Below, piece after piece: positions 2,212 through 23,399 of a stretch of DNA of 23,399 nt. Within the stretch, counting starts at the first letter, position 1. Each line of letters opens with the position of its first letter. The DNA comes from a virus. Location: positions 1-23,399 of IMG/VR virus record IMGVR_UViG_3300042434_000050; one strand, written 5' to 3'. A program made the position numbers and the translations under genes. Under the pieces are notes generated by a model. It was not told where the DNA came from. It made no database searches and worked only from the letters and a program-made list of their open reading frames with translations.

Positions 2212-2219
2212 ATTCGCTC

Positions 2220-3920: not shown

Positions 3921-5801
3921 CTACATGACCTCCTCTAGAACCATCAAAAGAGTACCCTGCCAGCCGTTACCCGTGGTACTCAGCCGCTCCGGCTGCCACA
4001 GAAACTCCCGAGCCAGCACCTGATACGCCTGCCCCGATTCCTGATACTGGAACACCGTCCCCTGCTCAATCAAAGCCAGCAGACCGTTCTTATCCGCTAC
4101 AGGGTTCCGGGCCTCAATCATGCCGTTAATGTCCACCTCGTCAGCGAGGATCACCGGCACATCCCACCGGGACGCCTTCCCCTTCACCGGGAAAGCACGC
4201 AACTCCCAGCGGGTAGGGATCGGCCCCTTTGTCGCGTCGGTGGGGCAGCGCAGTAAAACCATTCGCATATTCACGCGAGAAAACTTAATGCCGTTCAAAT
4301 TCAAATTATCCGACCGGACGCTCGTTTCGCTGGTCGTCAACCGGGCATACCGACCATAAGCCCCCGAATCAAACGACAAATCAATATACAGAGGGCTAGC
4401 AGTAGACGGCAGCCACTTAACCTGCATATACAGCGACGACTTCAAATCCTCCACAGAGAACGACATCGTGCCCTGCGTAAACCAGCCACCCTCAACCTTA
4501 TCCGTACCCTCATAAAACACCCCGGCGTCTTCAACCACAAACACCCGCCTACCCAGCCACGTCACACACGCCGTAACCGGAGCCGCCGCCTCAGACCACA
4601 CCGCCACATCATTCGCATACGCGGGAGTCAAAGCAGTCGTCGTAAACGTAGACAAGTCAAGACGCCCAAGACCCGGCACAGGATTAGCGGGAAACACATC
4701 CCCAGCATCATTATTCACCGCCGTGTAAGCGGGATCCATGCTGTCGATCCCATACCACACAAACCTGTCCTGACCCTCGAAACACTTCACCGGCTCAACC
4801 GTAGGAATGATCGCGCCGAGAGTCAGATCACCGTTGTCCGCTGGCTGAGCCATCCGGACACCCTTATCCGTCCCAATAAACACATACCCCAGATAGGCTT
4901 CGATCTCGTAACCGATCTCCCCATCAGGCAACTCCACCGCCACAATACAAGGATTCAGGCCAGTGCCGTCATCCTTAATCGTCACCTTGTGAACAACCCA
5001 CTTGTCCCCGAAACCACCCAGCAGGTAAATAGCCTGAGGACCGCCACACGCCGCCACCCAACGAAACTCGTCATCAGGATGCGTGAAAATCGTGGTCGCC
5101 TGATTGCCCTTCTTCACCCACTTCAGGACATTCGCCTGACCACACAGCAGGTAATCCTTCGTCCACGTAATAAAAGTCGCATCCGTCAACGCATTATTGT
5201 GATACAACGCAGCCGTACCCGTAGGCGAATCCAACTCGTAAATGTAGCCAGCGTTATTCAACCCCAGCATAATATTGCCACGATCAGCGACACTAATAAT
5301 CGGAGCGGACCCCAACGTCACACTCGCCGTCAACGTACCAAAATCCTCATACCAGTACGTGTAATTACTGTTGATCACAACGAGATACCCGCTGTGCAAC
5401 GTCAGCCACGTCTGGCCCGTAGTAGCACGCAACTCAAGAGTCTCAGGCAGCAGGCTCATCTGCCATTCAGTCCACGGATCAATACCAAACGAATCCTCAT
5501 ACCGTGACTGGATCGCATCATCCCGGTCAAGGTTCGACTGGCCCGCACCAGACTTCCAGTTATTCGTCTGCTGACGCCACACATTCTGCGGCAGCAACAG
5601 AAGATCCCGGTTATCCGTCGTGTTCCGCTGTTGCAAAACATCAAGCGACCGCTGCGTATACCTATTCGACGCAACATCAATCGGATACACCCGGCCATTG
5701 ATAGCGACCTGTGACCCGCCAAGATTACCGATAGCGGACGTGCCCTCTACACCGTTCCCGTAGAACGGCTCATCAAACTCCCGCGTAATCTGTGTAGACA
5801 A
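3921..5801 (-). CDS. 626-aa tail protein (minor tail or nozzle-like, beta-rich)
   Basis: 626 aa. The start is TTG at 5801, directly after the upstream TAG and in frame with the upstream gene; GGGGAG lies five bases upstream (5807-5812) and no ATG/GTG occurs nearby downstream. The N-terminal approx. 115 residues (NGRVYPIDVASNRYTQRSLD, VWRQQTNNWKSGAGQ, LDRDD, GIDPWTEWQMSLLPET) match a conserved N-terminal region that I recall from minor tail proteins of actinobacterial phages. The body is a series of beta blades with aromatic and Gly-Asp turns (LTLHSGYLVVIN, YLLGGFGDKWVVHK, YLGYVFIGTDKGVR), suggesting a beta-propeller. In short-tailed phages the tail nozzle is also a propeller, so this may be the nozzle equivalent; in that case the 294-aa upstream product would be its adaptor. 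The last 100 residues may form a separate domain. Confidence 0.65.
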   Translation of the reverse strand: MSTQITREFDEPFYGNGVEGTSAIGNLGGSQVAINGRVYPIDVASNRYTQRSLDVLQQRNTTDNRDLLLLPQNVWRQQTNNWKSGAGQSNLDRDDAIQSRYEDSFGIDPWTEWQMSLLPETLELRATTGQTWLTLHSGYLVVINSNYTYWYEDFGTLTASVTLGSAPIISVADRGNIMLGLNNAGYIYELDSPTGTAALYHNNALTDATFITWTKDYLLCGQANVLKWVKKGNQATTIFTHPDDEFRWVAACGGPQAIYLLGGFGDKWVVHKVTIKDDGTGLNPCIVAVELPDGEIGYEIEAYLGYVFIGTDKGVRMAQPADNGDLTLGAIIPTVEPVKCFEGQDRFVWYGIDSMDPAYTAVNNDAGDVFPANPVPGLGRLDLSTFTTTALTPAYANDVAVWSEAAAPVTACVTWLGRRVFVVEDAGVFYEGTDKVEGGWFTQGTMSFSVEDLKSSLYMQVKWLPSTASPLYIDLSFDSGAYGRYARLTTSETSVRSDNLNLNGIKFSRVNMRMVLLRCPTDATKGPIPTRWELRAFPVKGKASRWDVPVILADEVDINGMIEARNPVADKNGLLALIEQGTVFQYQESGQAYQVLAREFLWQPERLSTTGNGWQGTLLMVLEEVM

Positions 5802-5806
5802 CTACA
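5793..5806 (-). promoter_or_regulatory. Small inverted repeat with the TTG start codon in its loop
   Basis: In the mRNA, TGTAG-TTGT-CTACA can form a 5-bp stem whose 4-nt loop contains the TTG start of the 626-aa gene and whose 5' arm contains the TAG stop of the 294-aa gene. It sits just after the ribosome-binding site. Weak stem; functional role is speculative. Confidence 0.3.
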
Positions 5807-6686
5807 CTCCCCGATAAATCGGGATACGAGTCACCAAACGAATCATCTCCTCCTGAACCCGGTTCTTAAACTCCCGATCCAGTTGAGACGCAATAGACGA
5901 ATTCGCTGTCACCGGCACCTCCTCCGGACGACGCGAATCACCCTGAGTAGACACCTGAGTCCTACGCGCCTCCGTCGTCCGCAGCAGCATCGCCGCAGCA
6001 CCAAGCGCCGGAATGTCCAGCATCGACTCCGTAAGCCCACACGTCGCCACAGGGTCAGTACTCAAACTCGTCGCCAACGTAAACGGAGCCTTATACGTGA
6101 ACTCCACATCCGTACCGCTAGGAATGTTCCGCAGAATACGGATCACATTCTGGTCAGCGGAATACACCCACCGCCACATACGGTCAGGCAGATCCGTCCA
6201 CACATCCGTCGTACCCGGCACACGCCACCGCACCCGCAGAATATTCGTCATACCCTCAGCGGCAGTCGGAACCACATACGTCTGATACGTGGCATCAACC
6301 TCAGCAGTCCACGTACCAATCTTGTAAAGACCATTCTCAGGACTCGACAGGCGGCGCAGCACATCATTCAAGGCATTGAACGCAAACCAGTCCGTCATGC
6401 GGGGCCGCACATAAACCATGTCACCCGCTGTCACTGCCTGCTGCGGGGAACCGTCATAGCCGGGAATCACAAACACCGTGTTGTCGTTCGCGTACACGCC
6501 CTTCACAAACCACACATTCAGGCCAGACGACAGCAGCATCCCCTTCTGAATACCGTCCACCCCAAGTTCCAGTTGCAGGCTCGTCTGCCCAGCACTAGCA
6601 GACACCTGCACAAGGTTCACATTCTCCGTCATGCTCCCGTACACGCGCCTGCGCACGTCGGAAACAAGGTCCCGCATGGTAGCCAC
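5802..6686 (-). CDS. Putative head-tail adaptor/connector protein (294 aa)
   Basis: 294 aa, GTG start at 6686 overlapping the TAG of the collagen-like gene (TAGTG), with GGAGG six bases upstream. It begins MATMRDLVSDVRRRVYGSMT, an N-terminal helix typical of adaptor-like proteins, then has a beta domain (ASAGQTSLQLELG, WFVKGVYANDNTVFVIPGY), an aromatic helix (DWFAFNALNDVLRRLSS), a second beta domain, and a C-terminal part with LDIPALGAAAMLLRTTEARR and a final basic helix. The helix-beta-helix layout and the closing I-P-x-L-G-A-A motif resemble adaptor or tail-completion proteins of other phages. It would link the portal ring to the tail nozzle, matching its place directly upstream of the 626-aa tail protein. 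T7 gp11 fills this role but is shorter (about 200 aa), so the assignment is tentative. Confidence 0.5.
   Translation of the reverse strand: MATMRDLVSDVRRRVYGSMTENVNLVQVSASAGQTSLQLELGVDGIQKGMLLSSGLNVWFVKGVYANDNTVFVIPGYDGSPQQAVTAGDMVYVRPRMTDWFAFNALNDVLRRLSSPENGLYKIGTWTAEVDATYQTYVVPTAAEGMTNILRVRWRVPGTTDVWTDLPDRMWRWVYSADQNVIRILRNIPSGTDVEFTYKAPFTLATSLSTDPVATCGLTESMLDIPALGAAAMLLRTTEARRTQVSTQGDSRRPEEVPVTANSSIASQLDREFKNRVQEEMIRLVTRIPIYRGV
5807..5823 (-). promoter_or_regulatory. Ribosome-binding site and overlapping hairpin before the 626-aa gene
   Basis: GGGGAG (5807-5812) lies five bases before the TTG and decides that unusual start. The 3' arm of a perfect 6-bp hairpin, CCCGAT-TT-ATCGGG (5810-5823), overlaps the first three bases of this site, so the site could be partly masked unless ribosomes are translating the end of the 294-aa gene. 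Confidence 0.45.
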
Positions 6687-8730: not shown

Positions 8731-8777
8731 TGTCTTCCCCTTCGCATAGGATTTAGTGACAAAACTGTCAAGAGGCA

Positions 8778-9400: not shown

Positions 9401-9405
9401 GACAA

Positions 9406-9410
9406 CCTCC
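9406..9410 (-). promoter_or_regulatory. Ribosome-binding site deciding the 43-aa gene start
   Basis: GGAGG sits five bases before ATG 9400. This is why the short 43-aa form is preferred over the 66-codon open frame that begins at GTG 9469. Confidence 0.65.
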
Positions 9411-9422
9411 AAGATAGGGGGA

Positions 9423-9459
9423 TGCCCCCTCCCCCGGCTCATACCAAGGGGAGGGGGCA
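9423..9459 (-). terminator. 12-bp GC-rich hairpin between capsid and downstream genes
   Basis: In the mRNA, TGCCCCCTCCCC (9459-9448) pairs perfectly with GGGGAGGGGGCA (9434-9423) across a 13-nt loop, seven bases past the capsid stop. There is no U-run after the stem, so it is not a textbook intrinsic terminator. It may be a partial terminator or a 3' stabiliser that raises capsid mRNA relative to downstream genes, as is common after phage capsid genes. Its 3' arm can instead pair in a smaller stem, GGGGG-CAT-CCCCC (9417-9429). Confidence 0.55.
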
Positions 9460-9465
9460 GACAGA

Positions 9466-10509
9466 TCACGGAGCCGTGTACAGGCCAGTGTCCGTCTTAA
9501 TGTGAAGCAGCGCCTCCGCACGGAAGACCGAGTAACCAACAAGGTGGTACCAGCCGACCGAAGCGAAACGACGCAACTTGTCCACAACCGGAGACACAAC
9601 GGTCTTCGGGTTCGGGCCAAAGCCCGGAGCGGTCGAGTACGCCTTAGCGAGCGCCTCAGCGCCCATCAGGTAGCCCTGACCAAGGTTGGTGAGGTGGTTG
9701 TTCACAATGATGCGAACACCCTCGTACTCGCCAATCTCACCCATGAAGATGCTGTTACCAGCGCGACCCTCATTGCGGGCAACCGTGTAGCGCCAACCGG
9801 TGTCCGTGGACTCGCTCTTCAGGTGCTGAGCCTGATACGGCGAGACAACAGCAACGTAAGCGCCACCGCGAACGGGGCGAACGTTAGCGGCCTGAAGGCG
9901 AGCAACACCCTCACGGAGAACCTCACCCGTCAGGTAAGTGCCGCTGCCGCCACCGATGGAACCAACCGTGGCGGTCGTCGCATCATCGTAGGTGACCGTG
10001 GTCGCATCGAGGGCGGTACGGGCCAGCGTGTCAATCGACAGACCAGCGTTGTAGCCGACCCGCTCAGCGATTAGCGGATCCATAGCGATCATGGACGTGC
10101 CACGGATCAGAGCCGTGTTCGTGACAGCCGTGCCGTACTCACGCATCGACACGGTGAGTGCCTTGGACGAGAGGGTCACGGAGTCAACGTCGATGTTCTC
10201 CAGCAGCGGGGTGGTCTGCTGGGCGATGTCGTCCACGAAGGAGAACCGCACAGAACCACCACGGTGCGTGGTGTTCGACGCGCGAACGGTAGCGAACTGG
10301 TCGAAAATCAGTTCGGGACGGAGCGCCGGGTAGACCGCGAGATCGTAAGCCTTGGTAACAAACTGGCTACCGAGGGTGATGTCGACAATCGGGGCCGGTG
10401 CGTTGATGGAAAGCGGACCCGCAGCGGTGACAATCTCACCGGGCGAGTACATGGGGCTAGTCGCGGGGCCGTTCTGATTGGCTCCCGGAGTGCCGGTACC
10501 TGCTGGCAT
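9466..10509 (-). CDS. Major capsid protein, N4-gp56 family-like
   Basis: 347 aa. ATG at 10509 with AAAGGA eight bases upstream; TGA stop. Features that recall the N4-gp56 capsid family: a variable N-terminus (about 1-40); VTKAYDLAVYPALRPELIFD (51-70); AERVGYNAGLSIDTLARTAL (148-167); LREGVARLQAANVRPVRGGA (198-217) followed by YVAVVSPYQAQHL; IFMGEIGEYEGVRIIVNN (254-271); and a C-terminal FASVGWYHLVGYSVF with a closing beta strand. Such proteins have the HK97 fold and build the icosahedral shell. It follows the scaffold gene by 12 nt, the classic order, and is the only good capsid candidate in the window. Family name is from remembered motifs; the capsid role itself is well supported by context. 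Confidence 0.88.
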   Translation of the reverse strand: MPAGTGTPGANQNGPATSPMYSPGEIVTAAGPLSINAPAPIVDITLGSQFVTKAYDLAVYPALRPELIFDQFATVRASNTTHRGGSVRFSFVDDIAQQTTPLLENIDVDSVTLSSKALTVSMREYGTAVTNTALIRGTSMIAMDPLIAERVGYNAGLSIDTLARTALDATTVTYDDATTATVGSIGGGSGTYLTGEVLREGVARLQAANVRPVRGGAYVAVVSPYQAQHLKSESTDTGWRYTVARNEGRAGNSIFMGEIGEYEGVRIIVNNHLTNLGQGYLMGAEALAKAYSTAPGFGPNPKTVVSPVVDKLRRFASVGWYHLVGYSVFRAEALLHIKTDTGLYTAP

Positions 10510-10521
10510 TTTCTTTATCCT

Positions 10522-10992
10522 TTACTGTTCGGATGCGATGGGGATTCCGTACTGGCGAACAACGTCCAGCATTGCGTCAACGCCGCCCTCGTTCATCGCT
10601 GCCTCCATACGGGCCAGAGCCGCTGCCTCAGAAGCATCCTCAGCAATAGCCCCCGCCGATGCGGAGATCACACGATCCTGAGCCTCCAGAGACATCTGCT
10701 GCTGAACCTTCTGTTCAGACGAAACAGCCTGCACCGGAGCAAGAAACCCTGCCTCATTAGCCGCTGCACGAATAGCCTCAACCTCCATATCCCCGTCATA
10801 GCCCTTAACGAAATACTTCATCTTCGGGTCATCGACAGAGATGCCAGCCTTGGCAAACGTGATCTGGCGAACCAGTTCAGCATTCTCAGCCTTCAGACGC
10901 TTAGCGTCAGCAGCAGCCTTACGCAGAGCGCGAAGGTCATTGCTACCGCTATCGTCCGACTCAAGGTCGTCGTTGATGTAGTTGTCAGACAT
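10522..10992 (-). CDS. Capsid scaffolding protein
   Basis: 156 aa, ATG at 10992 after an AGGAAAGGGAAG ribosome-binding stretch. An acidic N-terminus (about 1-19, DDLESDDSGSND) is followed by a charged heptad-like helix (RALRKAAADAKRLKAENAEL, about 21-40), then FAKAGISVDDPKMKYFVKGY and an Ala/Glu-rich, mostly helical C-terminus. Short acidic coiled-coil proteins directly upstream of the capsid gene are typically scaffolds that guide procapsid assembly and leave before or during packaging. The D-D-P-K-M-x-Y-F-x-x-G-Y block is one I recall from scaffolds of actinobacterial phages. It is the first gene after the candidate promoter, so scaffold and capsid may be boosted together. Confidence 0.8.
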   Translation of the reverse strand: MSDNYINDDLESDDSGSNDLRALRKAAADAKRLKAENAELVRQITFAKAGISVDDPKMKYFVKGYDGDMEVEAIRAAANEAGFLAPVQAVSSEQKVQQQMSLEAQDRVISASAGAIAEDASEAAALARMEAAMNEGGVDAMLDVVRQYGIPIASEQ

Positions 10993-11135
10993 TGCTCTTC
11001 CCTTTCCTATAACACGCCTAACCGGGAGTAGTCAGACGGAGGTTTCTGTAAAGCCACGCCACCCCATGACGGAGTACGCGGAATTAAAGGCACATACACG
11101 GAACATGGAGGCCAAACCATGACCGGCAATGAGTC

Positions 11136-11167
11136 GGCCAGCACGCCCCCTTTCGGAGGGCCAGCAC
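11136..11167. repeat. Direct repeat GGCCAGCAC flanking a GC-rich hairpin
   Basis: GGCCAGCAC occurs at 11136-11144 and 11159-11167. Between and partly overlapping them, GCCCCC-TTTCG-GAGGGC (11145-11161) can form a 6-bp stem with one G-T pair and a 5-nt loop. It lies just downstream of the candidate promoter and could be an RNA leader element or a protein-binding pair of sites. No U-run follows it. Confidence 0.45.
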
Positions 11168-11181
11168 TCGGCTCACTTCTA

Positions 11182-11209
11182 ATAATACACACATTTACTC
11201 AGTAAACAA
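11182..11209 (-). promoter_or_regulatory. Candidate sigma70-type promoter for scaffold and capsid genes
   Basis: On the minus strand, TTGTTT (11209-11204) and TATTAT (11187-11182) are spaced by 16 bases. The -10 matches TATAAT at five of six positions; the -35 is weaker. It sits immediately after the 348-aa gene and before the only long leader in the operon, where extra transcription of scaffold and capsid would make sense. Untested. Confidence 0.4.
11194..11206. promoter_or_regulatory. 13-bp palindrome in the candidate promoter spacer (possible operator)
   Basis: TTTACTCAGTAAA has perfect 6-bp arms around one base. It overlaps the last three bases of the candidate -35 and most of the spacer, where a dimeric regulator would block or assist RNA polymerase. 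Confidence 0.4.
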
Positions 11210-11212
11210 CCA

Positions 11213-12259
11213 TCAGCGTGTCGCTGCTGTGCCAAGCCCAGAAACACCGGCTTGCTCAGCCACAAAAGCGCCTCCCTGCTGGAACTGGCCCGCTCGGGAA
11301 GCAGCAATCCGGCGCACCTTTTGAGACGCCTCCTCATTACCAAAAGCCGATCCAAGAATGTCCTCACGCGTAGCCGTCTCGCCACGGCCCTGCATGAAGG
11401 TGGACTCACGAGCCGCTGTCGCAAACCCGACATTTGCCTCATCAATAGACACGCCACGCTGTGCCAGATTCTCAGCCTCAAGAGCGTTAATACCAAACTC
11501 CTGACGGGCAGCCTCCGTGCCAATACGAGCAGCGGTGTACCGCTTCTGAAGCATGGCTTCAGTTGCGTCAGTGTCAAGGTAAAACGACATAAGGTCATTG
11601 CCCGTGATGCCGTAATACTCTTGAAGAACCGCATAGGTTTCAGCCGGGGTGGTAGCGACAGCCGTAGCAGCAGTATTCATGCGGTCTACAATTTCCGCTG
11701 CCGATACGCGAGCGCCCACATAATCAGCAATCTTATCGTTAGTCATAAGAGTCTCATCTACGCCATAACGAGATGCTGCCTCTTTAACAGTATTACGATA
11801 GTTAATATACTGAAGTTCAGGATTCTCCCCCGTAAAAATTCCATCCCGCAGAAACTGATCCATCCGAGGAAACACCTGCAAATACGACTGATAAGCAGTC
11901 CTACCAGCATCAGATGTATCCGTCCCATACCGCAGCGCCTGCACAATCTCCGTCGCGCTAGCCCCACGGTTATACAGATCAGCAGCCCAGTTACCCAGCC
12001 CGCTAATACCTAAAGCGCTACGCAGCAGATTCTCCAGCATCTGTGAAGCAGAAAATGCAGGAGGAGGAGTAACTGTTGTTGGAGCAACTGGGGTTGACTG
12101 GGTTGCAGGTGTTTCAGGAGTTGGCTGCGGAGTAGGAGTCTCAGCAGGAAACGGGAAACTAGGAATAGGGATACCCATTGAATACTGTTGACGAGGCTCA
12201 TCGGGAACATCAACATAAATGGGCAAACCCATCGAATTAGGAACAAGTCGCCTAGCCAT
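11213..12259 (-). CDS. 348-aa virion protein, probably internal/ejection protein
   Basis: 348 aa from ATG 12259, which overlaps the upstream TGA (TGATG). A GTG one codon earlier is open but breaks the overlap pattern. Residues 1-35 are a short Pro-rich head with two related bits (NSMGLPI and YSMGIPI). About 40-67 is a Pro/Thr linker (TPTPQPTPETPATQSTP). The rest is helical: NYRNTVKEAASRYGVDETLM, an EYYGITGNDLMSFYLDTDAT block, EAMLQKRYTAARIGTEAARQ, and GISGLG/GVSGLG bits. The E-x-Y-G-I-x-x-x-D-L-x-x-F-Y-L-D segment recalls proteins of actinobacterial phages encoded near other large virion proteins; function unknown there. Its place at the end of the block below the giant protein suggests packaging inside the head. 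Confidence 0.6.
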   Translation of the reverse strand: MARRLVPNSMGLPIYVDVPDEPRQQYSMGIPIPSFPFPAETPTPQPTPETPATQSTPVAPTTVTPPPAFSASQMLENLLRSALGISGLGNWAADLYNRGASATEIVQALRYGTDTSDAGRTAYQSYLQVFPRMDQFLRDGIFTGENPELQYINYRNTVKEAASRYGVDETLMTNDKIADYVGARVSAAEIVDRMNTAATAVATTPAETYAVLQEYYGITGNDLMSFYLDTDATEAMLQKRYTAARIGTEAARQEFGINALEAENLAQRGVSIDEANVGFATAARESTFMQGRGETATREDILGSAFGNEEASQKVRRIAASRAGQFQQGGAFVAEQAGVSGLGTAATR

Positions 12260-13311
12260 CACGCCATCCCAAATGCGGAGAGAAGTTCGTCACCGATCTC
12301 AGTGTATTCCTGACGTGCCTTAGTGCTCTTATCCCAGCCATACTTCGGATCAGTTTTTACAACCCGAAGCCACTCATCTTTACTCATAATCCCATTAGGG
12401 CCACTCAAAAACCCAGTCCACTTAGTGTCAGCCAAATCCATAGACTCAACAGAAACACCTAGAAGATTTGCGGCCTCATTCAGATACGGCTCGGCAACCT
12501 GTCGCAGGCTGTACCGATCTAGAAGGCTGGAAGCGCCCGGATACATCAACTTAGCCTGCTCGCGGAAAAACTCTTCCTGACCCTGAAGCCACTCCTGCCA
12601 CCGCTCCCCCTGACCAAGAGCCTCACCAGTCTTCTGCTGAAGAATCTTGTTATCCAGAGTAAGACCATAGTTGTATGCGGCAGTAGCCAACTGATCCTGA
12701 ATAATTGAAGCAGTGCCCGTTAGCGGTTTACCAGCAATCTCAGCAGCCTGAGTGTCCGTCGTAAGACGCATATACTCGCCCGAAAAAAACGCATCCACCT
12801 CAGACTGAGACAAGTTGCTGCGCACAATCTGACGAGCCTGAGCAGCAATCTGATCCTCAGTAAGAGGCACGCCAAGACGAGCCGCAGACTGACGCAGAGC
12901 CGCAGCCTGATCATCAACCTTCTTTAGATACGTGTCAGCGTTAGGACCTTCAACGGCAAGATCAAACTCTTCCTCAGCCTTCTGCCGCTCTGAAGCAAAC
13001 TGAGTACGGTCATACTCATCCATGAACCGCTGATCAGTCCAGCCCTTGCCGTCAGCCTTGTATGCCTCAATAGCAGACAGCATCAACTGGTTCAGTTCCG
13101 GATACTTGTCAAGAATCTCTTTATAAAATCCATACTTATTGGCGTAATACTCTTTTGATTCGCCAGTAGCCTCAACGGGCTTGCTCTCTTCCTCAAGGGG
13201 AGTCCTAGAGACGCTCTTAACAGGACGCCCTTCAGAGTCGAAAGTAGTAACAACAGTCTGAACATTCTGCTTACGCGCATTAGTGCCCCGCTTCGGCTTA
13301 TCCTCAGGCAT
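12259..13311 (-). CDS. 350-aa virion protein, probably internal/ejection protein
   Basis: 350 aa, ATG at 13311 with GGGAG six bases upstream; the start lies 8 nt inside the end of the 465-aa gene. The N-terminus is basic and likely disordered (PEDKPKRGTNARKQNVQTVV), with charged helices to about residue 150. A helical C-terminal domain follows: QDQLATAAYNYGLTLDNKIL, WLQGQEEFFREQAKLMYPGA, YSLRQVAEPYLNEAANLLGV and a closing DEWLRVVKTDPKYGWDKSTK. The V-A-x-P-Y-x-x-x-x-A-x-x-L-x-V followed by a D-P-x-x-x-W-x-x-x-x-x-A-R stretch is one I recall from proteins of actinobacterial phages without assigned function. Co-translated with the 465- and 348-aa genes. Confidence 0.6.
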   Translation of the reverse strand: MPEDKPKRGTNARKQNVQTVVTTFDSEGRPVKSVSRTPLEEESKPVEATGESKEYYANKYGFYKEILDKYPELNQLMLSAIEAYKADGKGWTDQRFMDEYDRTQFASERQKAEEEFDLAVEGPNADTYLKKVDDQAAALRQSAARLGVPLTEDQIAAQARQIVRSNLSQSEVDAFFSGEYMRLTTDTQAAEIAGKPLTGTASIIQDQLATAAYNYGLTLDNKILQQKTGEALGQGERWQEWLQGQEEFFREQAKLMYPGASSLLDRYSLRQVAEPYLNEAANLLGVSVESMDLADTKWTGFLSGPNGIMSKDEWLRVVKTDPKYGWDKSTKARQEYTEIGDELLSAFGMA

Positions 13312-14701
13312 TCTGCGCTCCCATCAAACGAGCCACCAGCATCTCCATAAACCTATTCACCTGATACCCAGCCATCTCATCCCCACCAGAAATCTCAGAC
13401 GCAAACTCACGCGCCATCTGATCAGGATCCACCCCAGACGGGCGAGTACGAGACGTAGCAGTAGTCGTCCCGCCAGAACGAACATAATTCGTTACCGTCC
13501 GCACAGGAGACTTATTCTCCGCAGCATTCAGCCGTGCCATAAACTCAGCCAACTCAGACTCAGACGGAGGACGGCCAAGAGCATCACGAAGCACACCGGC
13601 AAGAAGAGAACGTCCCTGAGCAAGGCTTGTCTGCGTGTACTGAATATTGACCTGACGAGTAGTAGGACCGCCTCCCCCACCAGCCGCTCTACGCTGCTTC
13701 TCTCGCTCCTTCAACTCTTTAACCTGAGCAATTCGCATAGTCAGGACATCTTCAAACTCGTAACCACTAATATTCGCACGGCCCAAAATGGCAGTAAATG
13801 TTGAGTATTCTTCTGGCTGAAGAACGCCCGGAATAATCGCATAATTCTCAGGAAGAAGACGAGCAGCCGCCATCCGCTTCTGCAACTTAAAAATAGAGTT
13901 CTTATCCATATTTCCAAGAATCTGGATCTCGCTACCAATCCGGTAACGAGGAGCCTGATAAGACTGGCGCACCTTCTCTTGATACGCCAACTTCTCTTCC
14001 TCGGTAGCATCCGGACCCGGCACCATATTCGGCATACCCATAGGGGCCAAATACCCGGCAGCCTGCATATCAGCGCTGATACCCCAATACTTCTGCTGAG
14101 TATTGTCATAAATTGGGGCACCACCAAACGTCTCAATAATGTCCCCATACGCCTGCCGCTGCAAACTACCAATCATCCCGCGAATAGCAGGATCACTCGT
14201 GTACTGACTCACCAACTGGTCAGCAGTAACGGGATACTGCATCGGGGAACCCCACTCAGCATCCTCAACACCCACCGTTTCCTTTTGCAGAAAATCAGCA
14301 GTAGGAACAGACATAGAAGGCTTCACCGGAGGAGCAGATGTTTGCCCCGGCATAGCAGGACCCTGAACACGGTCCTCAACGCCAGCAAGAGCAGGCATCC
14401 CTGTCTGCGTAAACGCAGCAGGCGGAGTTGACATACCAGAAAAATCCCGCTCAGGAAACATCCCAACAGGCGGCATTGACCTTTGTGCCGTTGCAATACT
14501 CTGCTGCGCCATCTGAATATTCATTATGCGCTGCTGCTCACGCTGACGAGCCATCTCATACGCGCTGAAATTAGGATCGGGAATAGGCGTAAGAGTTGGC
14601 ATGATTGCCAGCGCTGAATAACCCGGAAGAACTGACTTCTCCAGAGCGTAGTCCGCAGCGGTAGGGCTCATCCGGTTATTAGCCATATTCATAACAACCA
14701 T
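13304..14701 (-). CDS. 465-aa Met/Gln/Pro-rich virion protein
   Basis: 465 aa from ATG 14701, overlapping the TGA of the giant gene (TGATG) with AAGGAG eight bases upstream. A GTG at 14710 is open but lies inside that ribosome-binding site. Residues about 1-150 are low-complexity, Met/Gln/Pro-rich (YEMARQREQQRIMNIQMAQQ). The middle is helical and mixed (GDIIETFGGAPIYDNTQQKY, IFKLQKRMAAARLLPENYAI). A basic helix precedes a run of five glycines at about 330-345. Residues about 370-400 contain LRDALGRPPSESELAEFMAR followed by LNAAENKSP, and the C-terminus has GVDPDQMAREFA. The L-G-R-x-P-x-x-x-E-L block recalls a domain in actinobacterial phage virion and lysozyme-carrying proteins; no catalytic motif is seen here. 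Confidence 0.6.
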   Translation of the reverse strand: MVVMNMANNRMSPTAADYALEKSVLPGYSALAIMPTLTPIPDPNFSAYEMARQREQQRIMNIQMAQQSIATAQRSMPPVGMFPERDFSGMSTPPAAFTQTGMPALAGVEDRVQGPAMPGQTSAPPVKPSMSVPTADFLQKETVGVEDAEWGSPMQYPVTADQLVSQYTSDPAIRGMIGSLQRQAYGDIIETFGGAPIYDNTQQKYWGISADMQAAGYLAPMGMPNMVPGPDATEEEKLAYQEKVRQSYQAPRYRIGSEIQILGNMDKNSIFKLQKRMAAARLLPENYAIIPGVLQPEEYSTFTAILGRANISGYEFEDVLTMRIAQVKELKEREKQRRAAGGGGGPTTRQVNIQYTQTSLAQGRSLLAGVLRDALGRPPSESELAEFMARLNAAENKSPVRTVTNYVRSGGTTTATSRTRPSGVDPDQMAREFASEISGGDEMAGYQVNRFMEMLVARLMGAQNA

Positions 14702-17700
14702 CAGTCCCACTCCTTGATCATCATGTTATGAAGAACCTTGAAATTAGGGTTCTGCAACAGCAAGTCATTCAGGTCATCAATATACGCTGCCTTAATAGCG
14801 GCAACGCCTTTCCCACCCAGCGTCGTGTCAGGTTGGCCGGTCTGGGTGCGGGCAGCACCAAGAGCAGAGTCACGGTACGCCCACGCCTGCGCAAATGTGC
14901 GACCGTTTTCTGTCTGCTGGATTGACTGGGAGCGGTCATACATTCCCTTGATCCGCTCTAGCCGCTGAGTTGCAGTCTGTGAATTAAACTCAACACCAGC
15001 ATTAGTGTCCTTATACTTTTCCTTAAGATCACTAATGGCTGCCTCGTAAGTAGGCTTATTAATCTTGTCAGCGTTATACATCGCCTCAAGACCCTGCCGC
15101 TCCACCCGCAGCAGCATAGAAATCACGTCATTCACAACATCCTCAGACGACCGGAAACCCCGCTCCTCCTGAGTAATACTCTCAATCCACGCACGCGCAG
15201 TAGCGTCACGCGGATCACCCTCTGGGAAGAACAGCGAGAACTCATCTGGGTAAGCCCCAGCAATTTCCTTATTCTCATCAGTTGCACGCGCCCACTGCCG
15301 AGCCTCAGAAGAAGGAACCCGCGACCAACCCTTACGATTCATTGTCAAAGCAAACACAACCGCAGGACCAAAATCCTTCAGCATGTCTTCCTTGGCTGCC
15401 ACAGAATCTCCACCGTTCTCCGTTAGGTACAACGGATACAGTCGAGAAAACACGCCAAGGCCAATTTCTGAATCCTTAAGCGCTTCCTGTTGAGACACCG
15501 GCAAATCAATAGTTTCTCCTGTGACCGAATACTGGGGGCGAGGAGAAGTCGGGCTAATGTTCTGGCCTAACCCACTAATAAATAGGAACGAGTTTCCAAG
15601 AGCAGTAGCGTCTTCCTTAAGAGCAGCCACACTCACTGGGTCAGTAAGATCGTATCTTCCACTGCTTGCAAGAATTGAGACAGCCTCAACAACTTCCTTG
15701 TTTTTGCGAGATGGGGCCAAAGAAGAAATAGCAGGACCGATTGCTTCACCAACAATTGGGATAGCGCCGACTCCAGCAATAGCGCCTTGTGCCCATGCAG
15801 GAACAATGTTCTCTAAAACTGTTTGTGGACCAAACGGCTGTGACATGGCCTGAAGGTTCTCAATGACATCCTCATCAGGCAGAAGATTAATACCCATACC
15901 CACCAGCGGGCTAACGCCAGCAATCGGATTATCTTCAGCGCCACCAAGAGCAAGGTTTGCAGAAGAAATAGGCGAAGAAACATCAAGAGCAGGAGAATTA
16001 AACCCAAGTCCCTGAGCCCACGCCAGTGAACCAGAAGCAAATCCCTGCATTCTGCCAGCAAGCGGCATCACAAAATCGTAATCACCAAACTGGTTCTGGA
16101 AGAAGAAACCACCATTAGGATCCTGATCCCACGGGGCGTATCCCTCTTCATAATCTCCATACAAACCAGCCGCTGATCCAAGGTCATACAATTCAGCAGA
16201 ACCCGGCATCATCGCTGCATTAAAAGCCCGCTGCGCCTCATACACACGAATCGGATTCTTTGCGGCCAACTTGCTCCACTCAGTAACCGTATTACCCCAT
16301 GCCTGACCAAACGGGAAAATCAGGCGAGTAGCAGCCCAGAAGTTATTTCTACGAGCCGCATCGTAGAACAAGCCCTTTACTTCCTGCGCTGCATAATCCA
16401 TTGCAATATCGTGCGCTTCTTGGAGCGTCAGCATGCCACCAGAATTATCCTTCTTGGCCTTATCCAAAGCCTTCCACGCGGGATGCTTGCTACCGACATT
16501 AACAAACTTCCCGCCCTGAATTTTTTGAATACTGCTAAGAGTAGTTTCAGCGGCTTTCATAGCGTCATCAACGTACTCAGCCGACAGACCGGGCAGGATC
16601 TGCGCCATCCTGTCCCAATACGCCATACGAAACTCTGGCCCTACCGTACCTAGACGCTCAATTTTGTTGGCAAACGCGAAGAAGCCATCAATCCAGCCAC
16701 GGCCTTTCTTCAGTTCAGTACCGTCAATCCACGGAACCATAACTTTGCCGTTGCCCATCCGGTCAACAACCATGCTTGACGGCTGACCGTTCTCCCAGAA
16801 CCGCTTCCGAAGAAGCGACTGAAGCCCCTTAACCCGATCCTTAAGATTAGGGACAGAGTTCAGGCTGAATGAGTCTGGGCCATCCATCCACTTCCCAGTC
16901 TTAATAAACCCTGTAAGTACCGGGTCATCCATCGTGAACTGCCGCACCCTAGCCAGCACGCTATTTGGGCTATTAAACAGATAATCTTCAGTTAGCGATG
17001 GGGAGTTAAAAATCTGCGCATACTTTTCATCTGCCGCAATTAACTGCTGCCGTGCCTTAACCGCATTCTCGTCGGAAGATAGAACCCAGTTCACGACAGC
17101 ACGCGCATCGCTGATCTGCTCTCCCCGCCCAGCGCGTGCCGACAGCGGAATATCTCCAAGAACAGCGCGTGCAAGAACTGTCCGGTGAAGAGTAATAAGT
17201 TCATTAGCCCAACCAGCAGGGAACTGTGCAGCCTCTAGCCCGATCTTCTGCCAACCCTTACGAATGCCGTACTGGTATACGCGAGGATCGGTCAAAGCAT
17301 TAGCCTGCCGGGTAAGAGCAAAGAACTCTTCCACATGATTAGCAATCGCAGCCGCTTCATCTAGCCCAACTTCAAAGTCAGTCCCCAGAATGGTCTGCTG
17401 ATACTTACCAAACGACTGATCAAAGAACTTGCCTTTTGGCGTGTACTTGCCCATAACTTTCGGGTTGCCCAGAACAATACCTACCATTGACAGTGGATCA
17501 TTAAAAATTGAATGATGCCCATTCAGGAACAACCGCACCTGCATCTCTGCACTATTTCGCAGAATGTACGCACCACGGAAAATGAGAAGACCAGTACGGA
17601 AGAAATTGTCAAACACCCTACGTGAAAAATCATACAGATTTTCAACAGCAGGAAGTCGTGAAAGTGCCGCTCCAACTCGTGAAATACCCTGCTGCCAGTC

Positions 17701-20700
17701 ATCAACGTTAGGTAGCGATAGGTAGCCACTCGCTAGTTCGCTATCAAACATAATGTCGGGAATGTCAACACTTGCCCCGTCGTCACCCAGATACTTCAGT
17801 GGAGTATCGCCACTTCCAATTCGCTCCGCAATACCAGCGCGAGCATCTGTCTCACCACCAAGAAATAGGCGCGTAGAGTCACGCAGAGCCGCCTTAAGCA
17901 CTGCCATTCGCTCAGCACCAGCAGTTCCCTTAAACAAAGCAGACGACTTATCCAACCGAGCAACAAGAGAATCGTTAATGTCATTAAACAATGACTTCAG
18001 GACATCAACATTTGCCGCTGTTGCCCCAAACGTTCCATCATTAAGAGTGACTCGCCCAATGTACTCATTCAACTTAGACGGGGCGATCTTGGCATACATG
18101 CCGTACTTGATAACCGCATCCACTACATCGCCAGACTTATCCAACTGAACAAGCCGCGCACCGGGCCGCTCACCCATCTGCCGTGCAATGGCACGCTTAA
18201 TCTTTGCGTCAGAAGTACGCCAAGTAGTCAAACTACGCAAACCATCGTTGCTTGACTTCTTCAGCCCCGCCTGAATACTGCCCTTCTCAACATCAACACC
18301 CAGACGCGGAGCAAGCACACGAATCAGGCCATCCTGACCACCGCCATTAATAGCGTTGTCAAGAACCGCCATGTACGTCTCTGAATCCCACTTGTTTGAC
18401 GTAACCTGCCGCAGCGACCCAACATACGGTGCAGCAATATCAGCCCACTCCTTGCTATCGCGGGCAAGCGTCTGCAACTTAACTATGTCCTTCTCAGACA
18501 CAAACGATGACAGCGCATCAAGAGCCTTCGCCCGAACGCTAGCCAGTGGACCCGAGCCAAACATAAACCAGCGCACATTATCTGGAGTAACGGTCGCGCC
18601 CTTAGCCCCGCTAAGCGCAAGACCCATCTCATAACCGACAATCTCCCGCAACGCCAACTCGGGATCACTAAACTTTTCCGCCAGAGACACACGGCCAGCC
18701 TCAATTCGCTGCTGACCAGCCCGCGCCATCTGCAATGCTGTATTACGCTTTGTTGTCCGCGTGTTACGAGCCGCAGTAAGTGCCCGCTCGCTATCAAGAA
18801 TCAGATCATCAATCTGCTCACGGCTCATACTAAACAAACCGACAGGCTCTGCGGTACGTGGGAGTGCTGCAAGAAACGCGTCCATGTCATCCAGCATGCC
18901 CGCAGCCTGCTCAGCATTTTGAAGAGCACTATCAGGGAATTTGTAAATTTCAGTCAGCGACGTTTCAGGGAACCACGCGCCGTTACCGTACCTACGGTTT
19001 ACCCCCCAAAGAGCATCCCATCCTTGGTTTGTTACAAATTCACCAAACTCGTAACCAAGCCCCCGCTGTTGCATAGCGTCCAAAACACCAGCGTAAGTAG
19101 TGTCCTGCTTGCTTACCAGTTCCTTCAGGTATTCAAATGGGTTCTCAATGCTTTCAATCTGCTTAGCGATAGTTCCGGGGAGAGCGTCCAACTCTTCAGG
19201 CGACAAACCAAAAGGTTCAAAAATTGCTCCTTCACGCTGAGCAATCTCATCAATAAAACTAGCAAGAACAGCAGCCTCTTCTTCAGTAATCTTATCGCCA
19301 GCGTTCTTGTAGACGGGAACCTCGTTCTGCTTCCACCCCATAATCACATCGTTGCCGTTATACAGGCCCCGCTGCATAGCCGTTAGATTCTCAGGATCAA
19401 TCTGATCAGGAACAATCACGCCAACATAGTTAATGTTTTCAAGTTCGTTGACTGCACGCTCAGCCTGATTAGACAAAATCAAGCGAGCAGCCTGCTCATC
19501 AACCTGATCCGCAAAAAAAAGTTCCTGCTGCTTAGTAGCAGAATCCAATTTCTTTCCGTAATACTCTCTAGCCTTACTAAAAATCTTCTCAGCAATCAGC
19601 GGATCATTCTCAACATCAATCTTCTTCCGCTTTAGCAACTTATTTACATGCGCAGCAGACTCAAGAAGAATGTCCTGATCCTCGGGGTCAAGACTGTCAA
19701 ACCACCGCTGCATTTTGACGGGGCTATAAACAGATCCATTCTTAGGTCGAGCCAACGTAGCGGCTTCCTCATATTGGTCCCAAAGAGAAACAGTCTTCTC
19801 AAGTCGGTCCAAATCGGAACCAACAACATCACGACCATTAGTAAAAATATTCAAACGGGCTTGAGCAACCCGCTCTCCAGCCGCATACTGGGCTACACCA
19901 GTAACAGATGGCATAGCAGAGTCATATGCTTCTTTAGCCAACTGTGCTTCGCGCATTTGACGAACAGCCTCAGCCTGATCCGTCTTAGGCATAGACTCAA
20001 AATCCGCAGCAGTAAGAGTCTTCCCCTCAAGAGGACCGCCCGGTTGAGCAGCCAACTTGTTGTAGTCAGCAACAAACTTATTAACATTCCGATTCATTGC
20101 CGCTGTAGCAGACCGAACTTTCTTAGCCTCACGGCCAAACGTCAAAGCCCGTTCAGCGCGGCCAAGCGTCCTGCCCGCATCAGTCACATACTGAAGACCA
20201 GCAACAACATCACCCGCTCGCTTTGCCTCACCAGCAGCAGACGCCAGCATCCCGGCCCCACGAATGGTTTTACCCAACACATTAAACTTTGAACCAATAA
20301 CAGTAGGATCACCAGCAATAAGAGCAACAGCATCAATTAACCCAGAAGCCGTGCTGTAACCAGACCAGTCCGGACCAGCAAGCGCGCCAATAATGCCGCG
20401 ACCAAGTGTCCACGCTTCACGAGAATCATCCGGCCCCGGAATCGTCCACGCATCAAACGTTGCCTTAACCTGCTGCTTGCCAACCTCAGACGTTTCCTCA
20501 ATAAACCAGCCCGGTCCACCATACAGTTCGTTTTCTTCAGCAATACGCGTAACCACGCTATTCAACTGCGACGGATCATCCATGACAATCTGTCGCTGCT
20601 CAGAATAACGAGGATCATCCTGTAGCAGTTTTTCCGCAGCCTGCGTATCAATACCAGCCTGCTGCGTTCCATAAGCGGGGTTAAACGGATTAAGAAGATT

Positions 20701-21504
20701 CTCAGGGTTACGTGCGGCAGCAAGCAATGTCTGCCCGCCATACGTCTGCTCCCACGGATTCTGAAACTCTTCATCCGGAACAAGAACACCATCAACAAAA
20801 GGAGCAAGAATAGGAGACAAAGAAAGACCAGAAGCAACAGCAGTACGAGCAGCCCCTAGCGCAGACTCAGGAGTAAGATTCCCTGCCGCTTCAGCAAATG
20901 CTCCACCCACCTGACGCACAGAACCCTGTACAGCCTCAACAGGCATAGACAAAGCAGCAAAAGCATTCCGAGTCAGCCACTGGGCGGGAGCCCACATAGT
21001 GCCTTCATCTTCTACTTCCTCCGGTGTCACCGCTGAGGCTGTAGTGGGGGCAAGAGAAGAATAATCAGCCTGAGATGCTTTAGCGTCTTGCTTAAGCAAT
21101 CCCTGAAGTGCTGGCGAATCAGGATTAAGTCCCGACTGCGCCATAGCCCACAGCACACCGGGAGAGTTTGTGTGACCATAACGGCTCAGCAGATTCTGAA
21201 ATGAATCAAGCGTTGCCTTCTTACGAGGATCAGAGTAATTATCAACAACAGCCTGAATCTGATTCATTTCGACTTGGTGATGATCCCAAGCATTGTATGA
21301 AGGGCCGTTCCAATAAAACTCGCGAGCAAACCCCTTAGACATGATGACAGGCTTGTCGCTAAGGTCAATATCGCCTAGACCTTCACCAACAGTAAAAGAA
21401 CTGCCCCACCCCGGTTGCTGCTTTTCTTCTTCAACAAGATCGCCATACTGTCCGCGTACACGGCCACCAGTCTCGTCAAGCAGTTCCTCAGAGTACGTTG
21501 ACAT
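14701..21504 (-). CDS. Giant 2267-aa virion protein, probably an internal/ejection protein
   Basis: 2267 aa, nearly a third of the window. ATG overlaps the upstream TAA (TAATG); AAGGA is five bases upstream. N-terminal approx. 160 residues look extended and acidic. Mostly helical sequence follows, with Glu/Lys/Ala-rich stretches (about 440-720 and 900-1000). Hydrophobic or amphipathic segments appear near 215-240, 1298-1313 (FRTGLLIFRGAYI) and 1906-1925 (AIAGVGAIPIVGEAIGPAI). A notable block lies near 1715-1735 (RRNNFWAATRLIFPFGQAWG), similar to a segment I recall from very large phage virion proteins. I see no lysozyme, peptidase or polymerase motif by eye. T7 gp16 (1318 aa) and the N4 virion RNA polymerase (about 3500 aa) show that ejected proteins can be this large. 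A tape measure is unlikely: no repeats, and no tail-tube or chaperone genes nearby. Confidence 0.65.
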   Translation of the reverse strand: MSTYSEELLDETGGRVRGQYGDLVEEEKQQPGWGSSFTVGEGLGDIDLSDKPVIMSKGFAREFYWNGPSYNAWDHHQVEMNQIQAVVDNYSDPRKKATLDSFQNLLSRYGHTNSPGVLWAMAQSGLNPDSPALQGLLKQDAKASQADYSSLAPTTASAVTPEEVEDEGTMWAPAQWLTRNAFAALSMPVEAVQGSVRQVGGAFAEAAGNLTPESALGAARTAVASGLSLSPILAPFVDGVLVPDEEFQNPWEQTYGGQTLLAAARNPENLLNPFNPAYGTQQAGIDTQAAEKLLQDDPRYSEQRQIVMDDPSQLNSVVTRIAEENELYGGPGWFIEETSEVGKQQVKATFDAWTIPGPDDSREAWTLGRGIIGALAGPDWSGYSTASGLIDAVALIAGDPTVIGSKFNVLGKTIRGAGMLASAAGEAKRAGDVVAGLQYVTDAGRTLGRAERALTFGREAKKVRSATAAMNRNVNKFVADYNKLAAQPGGPLEGKTLTAADFESMPKTDQAEAVRQMREAQLAKEAYDSAMPSVTGVAQYAAGERVAQARLNIFTNGRDVVGSDLDRLEKTVSLWDQYEEAATLARPKNGSVYSPVKMQRWFDSLDPEDQDILLESAAHVNKLLKRKKIDVENDPLIAEKIFSKAREYYGKKLDSATKQQELFFADQVDEQAARLILSNQAERAVNELENINYVGVIVPDQIDPENLTAMQRGLYNGNDVIMGWKQNEVPVYKNAGDKITEEEAAVLASFIDEIAQREGAIFEPFGLSPEELDALPGTIAKQIESIENPFEYLKELVSKQDTTYAGVLDAMQQRGLGYEFGEFVTNQGWDALWGVNRRYGNGAWFPETSLTEIYKFPDSALQNAEQAAGMLDDMDAFLAALPRTAEPVGLFSMSREQIDDLILDSERALTAARNTRTTKRNTALQMARAGQQRIEAGRVSLAEKFSDPELALREIVGYEMGLALSGAKGATVTPDNVRWFMFGSGPLASVRAKALDALSSFVSEKDIVKLQTLARDSKEWADIAAPYVGSLRQVTSNKWDSETYMAVLDNAINGGGQDGLIRVLAPRLGVDVEKGSIQAGLKKSSNDGLRSLTTWRTSDAKIKRAIARQMGERPGARLVQLDKSGDVVDAVIKYGMYAKIAPSKLNEYIGRVTLNDGTFGATAANVDVLKSLFNDINDSLVARLDKSSALFKGTAGAERMAVLKAALRDSTRLFLGGETDARAGIAERIGSGDTPLKYLGDDGASVDIPDIMFDSELASGYLSLPNVDDWQQGISRVGAALSRLPAVENLYDFSRRVFDNFFRTGLLIFRGAYILRNSAEMQVRLFLNGHHSIFNDPLSMVGIVLGNPKVMGKYTPKGKFFDQSFGKYQQTILGTDFEVGLDEAAAIANHVEEFFALTRQANALTDPRVYQYGIRKGWQKIGLEAAQFPAGWANELITLHRTVLARAVLGDIPLSARAGRGEQISDARAVVNWVLSSDENAVKARQQLIAADEKYAQIFNSPSLTEDYLFNSPNSVLARVRQFTMDDPVLTGFIKTGKWMDGPDSFSLNSVPNLKDRVKGLQSLLRKRFWENGQPSSMVVDRMGNGKVMVPWIDGTELKKGRGWIDGFFAFANKIERLGTVGPEFRMAYWDRMAQILPGLSAEYVDDAMKAAETTLSSIQKIQGGKFVNVGSKHPAWKALDKAKKDNSGGMLTLQEAHDIAMDYAAQEVKGLFYDAARRNNFWAATRLIFPFGQAWGNTVTEWSKLAAKNPIRVYEAQRAFNAAMMPGSAELYDLGSAAGLYGDYEEGYAPWDQDPNGGFFFQNQFGDYDFVMPLAGRMQGFASGSLAWAQGLGFNSPALDVSSPISSANLALGGAEDNPIAGVSPLVGMGINLLPDEDVIENLQAMSQPFGPQTVLENIVPAWAQGAIAGVGAIPIVGEAIGPAISSLAPSRKNKEVVEAVSILASSGRYDLTDPVSVAALKEDATALGNSFLFISGLGQNISPTSPRPQYSVTGETIDLPVSQQEALKDSEIGLGVFSRLYPLYLTENGGDSVAAKEDMLKDFGPAVVFALTMNRKGWSRVPSSEARQWARATDENKEIAGAYPDEFSLFFPEGDPRDATARAWIESITQEERGFRSSEDVVNDVISMLLRVERQGLEAMYNADKINKPTYEAAISDLKEKYKDTNAGVEFNSQTATQRLERIKGMYDRSQSIQQTENGRTFAQAWAYRDSALGAARTQTGQPDTTLGGKGVAAIKAAYIDDLNDLLLQNPNFKVLHNMMIKEWD
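14710..14715 (-). promoter_or_regulatory. Ribosome-binding site deciding the 465-aa gene start
   Basis: AAGGAG lies within the end of the giant gene, eight bases before ATG 14701. The competing GTG (14708-14710) overlaps the site itself, so initiation there is unlikely. Confidence 0.7.
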
Positions 21505-21875
21505 TAGCGTCCTTCGTAATCAAGACGATTAAGAATGCGAACAAGATCAGGGTTAGGTGAAATAAGCATCAATGCCTGTACCGCTTGACGCACTGGATCC
21601 ATTGGAGAAGGGGGAAGCGGGCCAAGAGCCTCTGGCCCCGGACCCATACCCATTGCAAGACCAGCAGTCACAGGCTCCATCGGACGGGCAGTCGGATCAC
21701 CAAGATTAGGGACCTCATCAGCGCCCACTAGCGGACCCATATACGGCTGCTGCTGGGCTGGGGCCTGCATTCCCCCTGCCGCTGGAGAACCCTGACGGCC
21801 ATAATTTTGTGCAAGATCAGTGCGGTTAGAGTACGCCTTACCCTGCGTGCCCTGCCGCTTCCCACCACGAGGCAT
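21504..21875 (-). CDS. 123-aa Pro/Gly-rich protein following the portal
   Basis: 123 aa, ATG overlapping the portal TGA (TGATG), with a GAGAGGGG ribosome-binding stretch. It opens MPRGGKRQGTQGKAYSNRTD, then has a disordered Pro/Gly/Met/Gln middle with TARPMEPVTAGLAMGMGPGP, and a short C-terminal helix (QALMLISPNPDLVRILNRLD). A small protein opening P-R-G-G-x-x-x-G-x-x-G-x-A-Y-x-x-R-T-D-L and containing R-P-x-E-P-V-T-x-G-L is found beside the portal or capsid genes of many actinobacterial phages, from memory, function unknown. The helical C-terminus could bind the portal or the giant protein. Confidence 0.7.
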   Translation of the reverse strand: MPRGGKRQGTQGKAYSNRTDLAQNYGRQGSPAAGGMQAPAQQQPYMGPLVGADEVPNLGDPTARPMEPVTAGLAMGMGPGPEALGPLPPSPMDPVRQAVQALMLISPNPDLVRILNRLDYEGR

Positions 21876-23399
21876 CAGATAGCCCCTCTCTCAGCGCCCC
21901 GCATAGGCTGCACAGTCATAGCAGGCCTACGCAACGCTCCTAGAAGAGCGCCAAGGTCTTCCATGCCCTGACCCGGCCCCGGAATAGGAGACTGCATCTC
22001 CGCTGCCGCCTGCGGCCCCATCATCGCCTGCATCGTTGCCCCAGCCATAGCCTGCTCTGGGTTCATCTGCTGCTGCATCATCTGTTCTTCCTGAGCCTTC
22101 TGCTGCTCACGAGCCGCATCCTCAGTCACCTTGTTAAGCGCCTCAGCAAGTTCCAGCCGGTCATCCTTAACAATCTGCATAATCTTAGCCAGCATCAACG
22201 GAGGAATCTGACCAGAAGCAGCCTGCTGCTGAATAGACGCCACCAGCGCCTGCTCAAGACCCTCAGCAGTAATCCGGTCCTTCTCAACCTCAGGATTATC
22301 AATAAACGGATCAAGGCTTGCCGCAGTTTCCTTCGACATAATGCCAAGACCAATTCGCTGCCCAAGGCCAATAATCAGGCTATTAACATCCGTGCCTGTA
22401 GCAGGATACGACACCACATGCTCGTCATCAGGGAACACGCGATTTGGAATAAACTTGACAGCCCGCGTTGCATTGCCAGTACCCGTATACAGGCTAAGCG
22501 TTTTTTCACCCGCGTAAGCCTTAGCAAGGCTAATAGCAATTTCGTCCTCTTCTTCAAGCGAAAAAGCGAACGTTTCCTGCGCTTCTGCTACCGGATAGTC
22601 GATGACAGCGGAAAGAACTGCGTCGCCGCGCCTGCCAGTACGAATATTTGTTGAGGACTCGCCGCCAAATTCAGCGGGGATGCCAGCGGTAACACGCGCA
22701 TTCCTTTCCAGCCGGTCAATGGTTGGGTTTGTGAGGTAACCCGGTTGCGACTGAATTTCCCTGATGTCACCACCAGCAATGATATTGACCATTCCTGTGC
22801 GGCCATCATGGGGTCCGTCAAGGAAACGGCCCACTTCACCCGGACGACTAACCAGATACGTGTCAGGGAAAATGCCCTTCTCAACCGCAATCGTCTCAAG
22901 CGCCATAAGCCGTGCCTGCATGTAGTACATGCCGACCATGTTGTCGAACTGTCCCGCTGCGCCATCAAGAGTAATACGCATTGGGATAGCGGCAGGCATC
23001 TCCATAGACATGTTGTCTACATACTCAAGAAGAATGCCCTTCATTTTGCCGGGATCGTCAAAGACTGGCTGCACGTAATACGGGTTATCTTCCTGATATC
23101 CGGAAAGAATCAACTGAGTGCAGTACGGATCCACGTACTCAATGAGCAGCATTGACGCGTCATTGGGAACATCAAACTTGCCCGTAAGCGCGGCAACCTG
23201 CATTGCATAACCCATGCTGCGAAGCCAACCTACAGACCTCCGATACGCAAAAATTACGTCCTTCGGCTTAACCTGACCCGGCATAATGTCAATAGATGGG
23301 TACGTTTCAAGTGGGTGGCGGATCTGCCACGTTGGCCGCTCATCCTTAGAGTTCCAGCGGATAACAACTGGGCTCATGCCGTAAGCAATAAGGTGGCGT
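21875..23399 (-). CDS. Portal protein (5' end outside window)
   Basis: 508 codons are open to the right edge. The ATG at 23377 has no ribosome-binding site and the frame continues upstream without a stop (RHLIAYG before it), so it is an internal Met and the gene is 5'-truncated. Seen from that Met: VIFAYRRSVGWLRSMGYAMQ (41-60), a beta/helix core, MVGMYYMQARLMALETIAVE (about 138-157), and SSTNIRTGRRGDAVLS (241-256), the G-x-x-x-x-N-I-R-T-G-R-R-x-x region that I associate with portal crowns and wings. A long helical C-terminus is Gln/Met-rich (EQMMQQQMNPEQAM, about 427-440). The portal ring sits at one capsid vertex, is the motor docking site for packaging, and leads into the tail. Confidence 0.75.
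   Translation of the reverse strand, partial: RHLIAYGMSPVVIRWNSKDERPTWQIRHPLETYPSIDIMPGQVKPKDVIFAYRRSVGWLRSMGYAMQVAALTGKFDVPNDASMLLIEYVDPYCTQLILSGYQEDNPYYVQPVFDDPGKMKGILLEYVDNMSMEMPAAIPMRITLDGAAGQFDNMVGMYYMQARLMALETIAVEKGIFPDTYLVSRPGEVGRFLDGPHDGRTGMVNIIAGGDIREIQSQPGYLTNPTIDRLERNARVTAGIPAEFGGESSTNIRTGRRGDAVLSAVIDYPVAEAQETFAFSLEEEDEIAISLAKAYAGEKTLSLYTGTGNATRAVKFIPNRVFPDDEHVVSYPATGTDVNSLIIGLGQRIGLGIMSKETAASLDPFIDNPEVEKDRITAEGLEQALVASIQQQAASGQIPPLMLAKIMQIVKDDRLELAEALNKVTEDAAREQQKAQEEQMMQQQMNPEQAMAGATMQAMMGPQAAAEMQSPIPGPGQGMEDLGALLGALRRPAMTVQPMRGAERGAI

Follow-up and report, generated by a model that had tools for sequence, protein, structure and literature searches.

A coupled block of four genes beside the portal gene

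The window, by which we mean the whole stretch of DNA analysed, is the linear IMG/VR record IMGVR_UViG_3300042434_000050 of 23,399 bases, in which the contig end cuts the 5' end of the portal gene. Its virion genes lie on the minus strand (Table 1), and among them four open reading frames make up one translationally coupled block, as the first-pass annotation had claimed and as the ORF calls and the junctions, read base by base, bear out. Stop and start codons overlap by one base (TGATG or TAATG) at the portal/123, 123/2267, 2267/465 and 350/348 junctions, and the 465 and 350 genes overlap by 8 bases. A mechanical ORF caller starts the second and fourth genes at upstream GTG codons, giving 468 and 349 aa; we prefer the ATG starts (465 and 348 aa) because they fit the TGATG junctions better. 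In family names, p468, p350, p349 and p123 stand for the 465-, 350-, 348- and 123-aa slots. Since homologues occupy the matching slots of relatives, we take the four frames to be real genes. Their position between the portal gene (with its 123-aa neighbour) and the scaffold and capsid genes likewise holds, supported by PHROG and Pfam matches of the flanking genes and by synteny.

Table 1. Virion genes of the window discussed in the text, with window coordinates.
Feature	Coordinates	Strand	Match or basis
2267-aa giant	14701..21504	-	proposed main ejection/conduit protein
465-aa protein (468 aa from upstream GTG)	13304..14701	-	weak match to phrog_13037, Streptomyces gp10 family
350-aa helical protein	12259..13311	-	phrog_6654
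348-aa protein (349 aa from upstream GTG)	11213..12259	-	phrog_8424
123-aa protein	21504..21875	-	phrog_8200
Portal, 5' end cut	21875..23398	-	place and synteny; own Pfam match not significant
Scaffold-like protein	10522..10992	-	phrog_7813; function inferred from place
Major capsid protein	9466..10509	-	PF13252, phrog_1357
Head-tail adaptor	5802..6686	-	phrog_7578; Streptomyces homologue matches SU10_adaptor PF24175
626-aa protein, proposed tail nozzle	3921..5801	-	phrog_11667; nozzle role from place and size only

The virion genes of this strand also encode small proteins, a collagen-like protein and glycine-rich or fibre-like proteins. Two adjacent glycine-rich proteins (PF21722, Gly_rich_2; window 679-3071) are possible fibre or receptor-binding proteins. 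Several of the small proteins (62-126 aa) that follow the capsid gene at 8221-9469 are rich in lysine and arginine, and one of them, of 91 aa, belongs to a cysteine-rich family (22 per 1000 residues). Profile searches found no convincing PDB match for the 626-aa protein; matches of the adaptor profile to designed Kelch proteins were taken as an artefact. The scaffold gene is separated from the 348-aa gene by ~220 bases (10993-11212), which contain a GC-rich hairpin-like stretch, CCCTCCGAAAGGGGG, and gave no Rfam match. In Streptomyces BF phages the equivalent gap is occupied by an array of 19-22 tRNA genes; the window contains no tRNA gene.

Structure prediction, suggested with the first-pass annotation, succeeded for one member of the block and led to no ejection-protein fold. 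The AlphaFold2 model of the 350-aa protein is confident and almost all-helical (pLDDT 86). Only viral predictions were significant in Foldseek: of nine such matches, one is the FlowerPower 'minor tail protein', a member of the same family, and the others are unnamed or come from uncultured phages, while no PDB match reached significance. For the C-terminal 978 residues of the giant the model is mostly helical and too poor for fold comparison with Foldseek (pLDDT 64, pTM 0.40). Hydropathy gives weak membrane-like segments in the giant and none in the small block proteins. The 465-aa protein carries a conserved C-terminal LGR...E...F...LN motif.

Gene order among relatives and their hosts

The first-pass annotation saw the block as inserted into a familiar gene order. 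In fact, the order is the standing one of a whole lineage and had already been deposited for Streptomyces cluster BF. Used directly as a query in IMG/VR and GenBank phages, the giant found zero matches, and relatives were recovered through the capsid and the 348-aa protein instead. IMG/VR searches with p350 and capsid yielded 26 loci, and 22 records were examined, one lacking its last 714 bases. About 20 close relatives show the order portal, p123, giant, p468, p350, p349, scaffold, capsid throughout the parts that their contigs cover, the exceptions being genes missed or replaced by the ORF caller. The p468, p350 and p349 families each comprise 24 genomes, and the giant slot is occupied in every genome that covers it. 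A profile scan with p349 brought up 276 relatives, 80 of which were retained; the 61 loci checked (including G022 again and one MAG locus) have the same order where covered, with gaps due to contig ends, antisense frames chosen by the caller and p468-slot proteins too divergent for a label. The lineage can thus be written as portal, p123, giant, 1-3 mid-size proteins, p348, scaffold, capsid.

Cultured podoviruses of Streptomyces cluster BF follow this same order. In Beephvirinae (Immanuel3, Manuel, FlowerPower and others) the giant gp9, gp10, gp11/gp12 and gp13 fill the slots of the window block, and phrog_6654 and phrog_8424 are common to both. The BF block consists of five proteins, two of them with wall enzymes, whereas the window block has four and no recognised wall enzyme. 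A short tail of 16 nm was seen for the Streptomyces podovirus Destructrice of this cluster (PMC13097060); the window phage is uncultured.

A 43-kb contig of an Actinomycetales MAG carries one member, and 3 of the 11 records tested contain the actinobacterial marker whiB, which makes actinobacterial hosts likely for the lineage as a whole.

The giants fall into two types. Only five, the window's included (window, G001, G002, G016, G017), match the window giant in sequence along their length. The sixteen others of the first relative set, type B, align with Streptomyces gp9 (profile E 1.2e-55). Profile comparison gave no significant direct link between the window giant and gp9, but a moderate one joins the window type to type B in the C-terminal part, across 474 columns (E 3.7e-7, probability 93%), which makes common descent of the two types likely, not certain. 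The 123-aa protein is conserved in its N-terminal part; in the window's relatives its C-terminal tail varies with the giant type. We also observed a 1649-aa stop-free frame antisense to the Streptomyces giant gene (L028, 6506-11452).

Wall domains, cysteine scarcity and co-variation

The window block proteins have no wall-enzyme domain recognised by Pfam, and the majority of family members, the window's included, have no recognised domain at all. In relatives, the phrog_6654 unit is fused to NlpC/P60, SLT, SLT_3 or PG_binding_1. BF gp11 joins NlpC/P60 to phrog_6654 and BF gp12 joins SLT to it; the p350 homologue of G001, ~50% identical to that of the window, starts with an SLT_3 lysozyme-like domain; and PG_binding_1 occurs in the p350 homologues of L100 and L122. 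In the distant relative L129 a transglycosylase-like domain, weakly matching M23 peptidase as well, is found in the p468 slot.

The block is also nearly devoid of cysteine. In 64,156 aa of block proteins there are 3 cysteines; other classified virion proteins have 249 in 52,230 aa and larger unclassified ORFs 423 in 49,141 residues. Related sequences enter these totals more than once, and we therefore attach no P values to them. The window's four proteins, the giant among them, have 0 in ~3,430 residues, where ~16 would be expected at the virion rate. T7 gp14-16 and P22 gp7/20/16 behave similarly, with 1 cysteine in 3570 residues as compared with 36 in 4884 for the other T7 and P22 virion proteins, scaffolds left out. 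Cysteine is absent too from the lambda tape measure H, the T7 and P22 scaffolds and the N4 capsid. Since lambda H and several scaffold or capsid proteins are equally poor in it, cysteine poverty is not specific to ejection and points to a constraint common to packaged or exported proteins.

Within the block, divergence is shared. In a set of 19 genomes, with the window among them and some genes represented by fewer, p123, giant, p468, p350 and p349 have pairwise identities that correlate at 0.76-0.90 with each other and at ~0.1 or less with those of the adaptor, the 626-aa protein and p166. When the window type and near-duplicates are removed, leaving 13 genomes of type B, block correlations are 0.34-0.80; giant, p468 and p350 remain a block at 0.66-0.80, and p349 correlates at ~0.5 with the block, 0.65 with the portal and 0.69 with the scaffold. 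The portal co-varies with the block at 0.57-0.70 overall and, in type B, at 0.65 with p349 and 0.29 with p123, the values for giant, p468 and p350 not being significant. Because only the 348-aa protein strongly keeps portal co-variation in type B, we claim no portal contact for the giant. Linkage of adjacent genes adds to these correlations, and part of them could stem from co-inheritance. The 348-aa protein, the best-conserved member of the block, may be a docking protein, given that among phages of a single giant type it diverges in step with portal and scaffold and also with the block; for the 123-aa protein we propose that it couples the portal to the block.

Two Planktophila phages, LanE43AprE7 and LanE43AprF5, provide a natural case of such joint variation. 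They were reported to differ by an 8-kb island, to which no function was assigned; it encodes three hypothetical proteins in one phage and four in the other, and these have no homologues in the respective other phage (Kavagutti et al. 2023; PMC10202952). When we aligned the deposited genomes, the flanks matched at 96.3% and 97.7%, and nothing aligned between E7 positions 8373 and 16921, a stretch that starts inside p123, spans the giant and p350 and stops at the end of p349. Like the window block, this '8 kbp genomic island' lies between portal/p123 and scaffold, and by size, position and gene count we infer that the published island and the unaligned stretch are the same. Portal, scaffold and capsid are 96-99% identical between the two phages, p123 46%, and giant, p350 and p349 26-27%. 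The giant, p350-like and p349-like proteins of both contain no cysteine, and a separate gene resembling p468 could not be recognised in the stretch. The sharp borders lead us to favour exchange of the whole block over fast divergence within it.

A probable ejection set and its alternatives

Taken together, the wall-enzyme fusions of relatives, the avoidance of cysteine, the co-variation as a module and the podovirus morphology of cultured relatives best support the reading that the block is probably the set of ejection (internal virion) proteins of a short-tailed actinobacterial phage lineage. This much of the distinct ejection module put forward by the first-pass annotation stands; no kinship with T7 gp16/15/14 came to light. 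HMM and profile searches detected no homology of the block to T7, P22 or N4 ejection proteins, and PDB profile searches found none either, the matches of alignments A1-A4 and A7 looking like chance. In hhalign, T7 gp16 aligned with the giant over 189 columns (E 0.0036, probability 9%), but this alignment vanished once a larger giant alignment was used. Moreover, sizes descend along the operon, whereas those of the T7 set ascend, and the block lies between portal and scaffold, whereas the T7 ejection genes follow the nozzle.

The resemblance is one of anatomy. Ejection genes lie together in a small operon, one of whose products is very large, and their wall-lytic domain can move between members (PMC8954989). 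The window block is such an operon, and with T7 gp14/gp15/gp16 and P22 gp7/gp20/gp16 it has in common the clustering, the large member, the movable wall-lytic domain (as seen in its relatives) and the near absence of cysteine. Its layout thus fits a set that would act like those of T7 and P22 without detectable kinship. Membrane-spanning elements are reported for gp14 and gp16 homologues (PMC8954989), in contrast to the weak hydropathy peaks of the window giant.

The same genes could encode external tail or adsorption proteins, that is, minor tail proteins with tail lysins that stay outside the tail. Several BF records do annotate gp11, the 350-aa homologue, as a 'minor tail protein', wall enzymes are frequent among external tail proteins, and PHROG tail families hit BF gp11 in its NlpC/P60 part. 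We nevertheless find this unlikely: the divergence of the block does not follow that of the adaptor or the 626-aa protein, the block sits on the head side of the operon adjoining portal and scaffold, and, in contrast to the external tail proteins measured (T7 gp12 and gp17, P22 gp9, lambda J), it is devoid of cysteine. A giant that served as tape measure, with chaperones, in a long-tailed phage would have the right size, helical content and lack of cysteine (as in lambda H); it is very improbable, given that the virion region yielded no recognisable tail-tube or tail-terminator gene (distant versions could escape detection), that an SU10-type adaptor is found in BF, that one BF virion has a 16-nm tail and that BF phages have 'no identifiable tape measure protein' (PMC13097060). 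An N4-type virion RNA polymerase co-injected with the DNA, which size and encapsidation would suit, can be all but dismissed, as none of 18 giants has a Pfam match of any kind and the tested part of N4 gp50 went unmatched.

Going beyond the ejection set as such, we suggest only tentatively that actinobacterial podoviruses possess their own ejection machine for the thick Gram-positive wall, with no detectable relatives in T7, P22 or N4, swapped whole between near-identical phages and docked through p123 and p348. The gene order was already deposited with the BF phages; that it might encode an ejection set is recognised neither in the records nor in the papers that we consulted. If true, a set found widely in actinophages, with wall domains that can be exchanged, would extend ejection sets of this kind to actinobacterial hosts, and a published variable island in phages of a freshwater bacterial group that ranks among the most abundant would gain a function. 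Cultured phage systems are available for a direct test.

We envision that the giant and its partners would be packaged inside the head close to the portal, the 123-aa and 348-aa proteins probably acting as couplers. At infection the set would pass through the portal and the short tail, make a local opening in the thick cell wall, bridge that wall and guide the DNA as far as the membrane. In some relatives, the part that opens or binds the wall would be a domain fused to the 350-aa or the 465-aa member.

Among the p350 homologues, that of L122 (730-3654) stands out by its length of 974 aa, owing to a long N-terminal part that has threonine-rich linkers as well as peptidoglycan-binding matches. 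The first 180 residues of this homologue, which have no Pfam match, resemble a folded domain.
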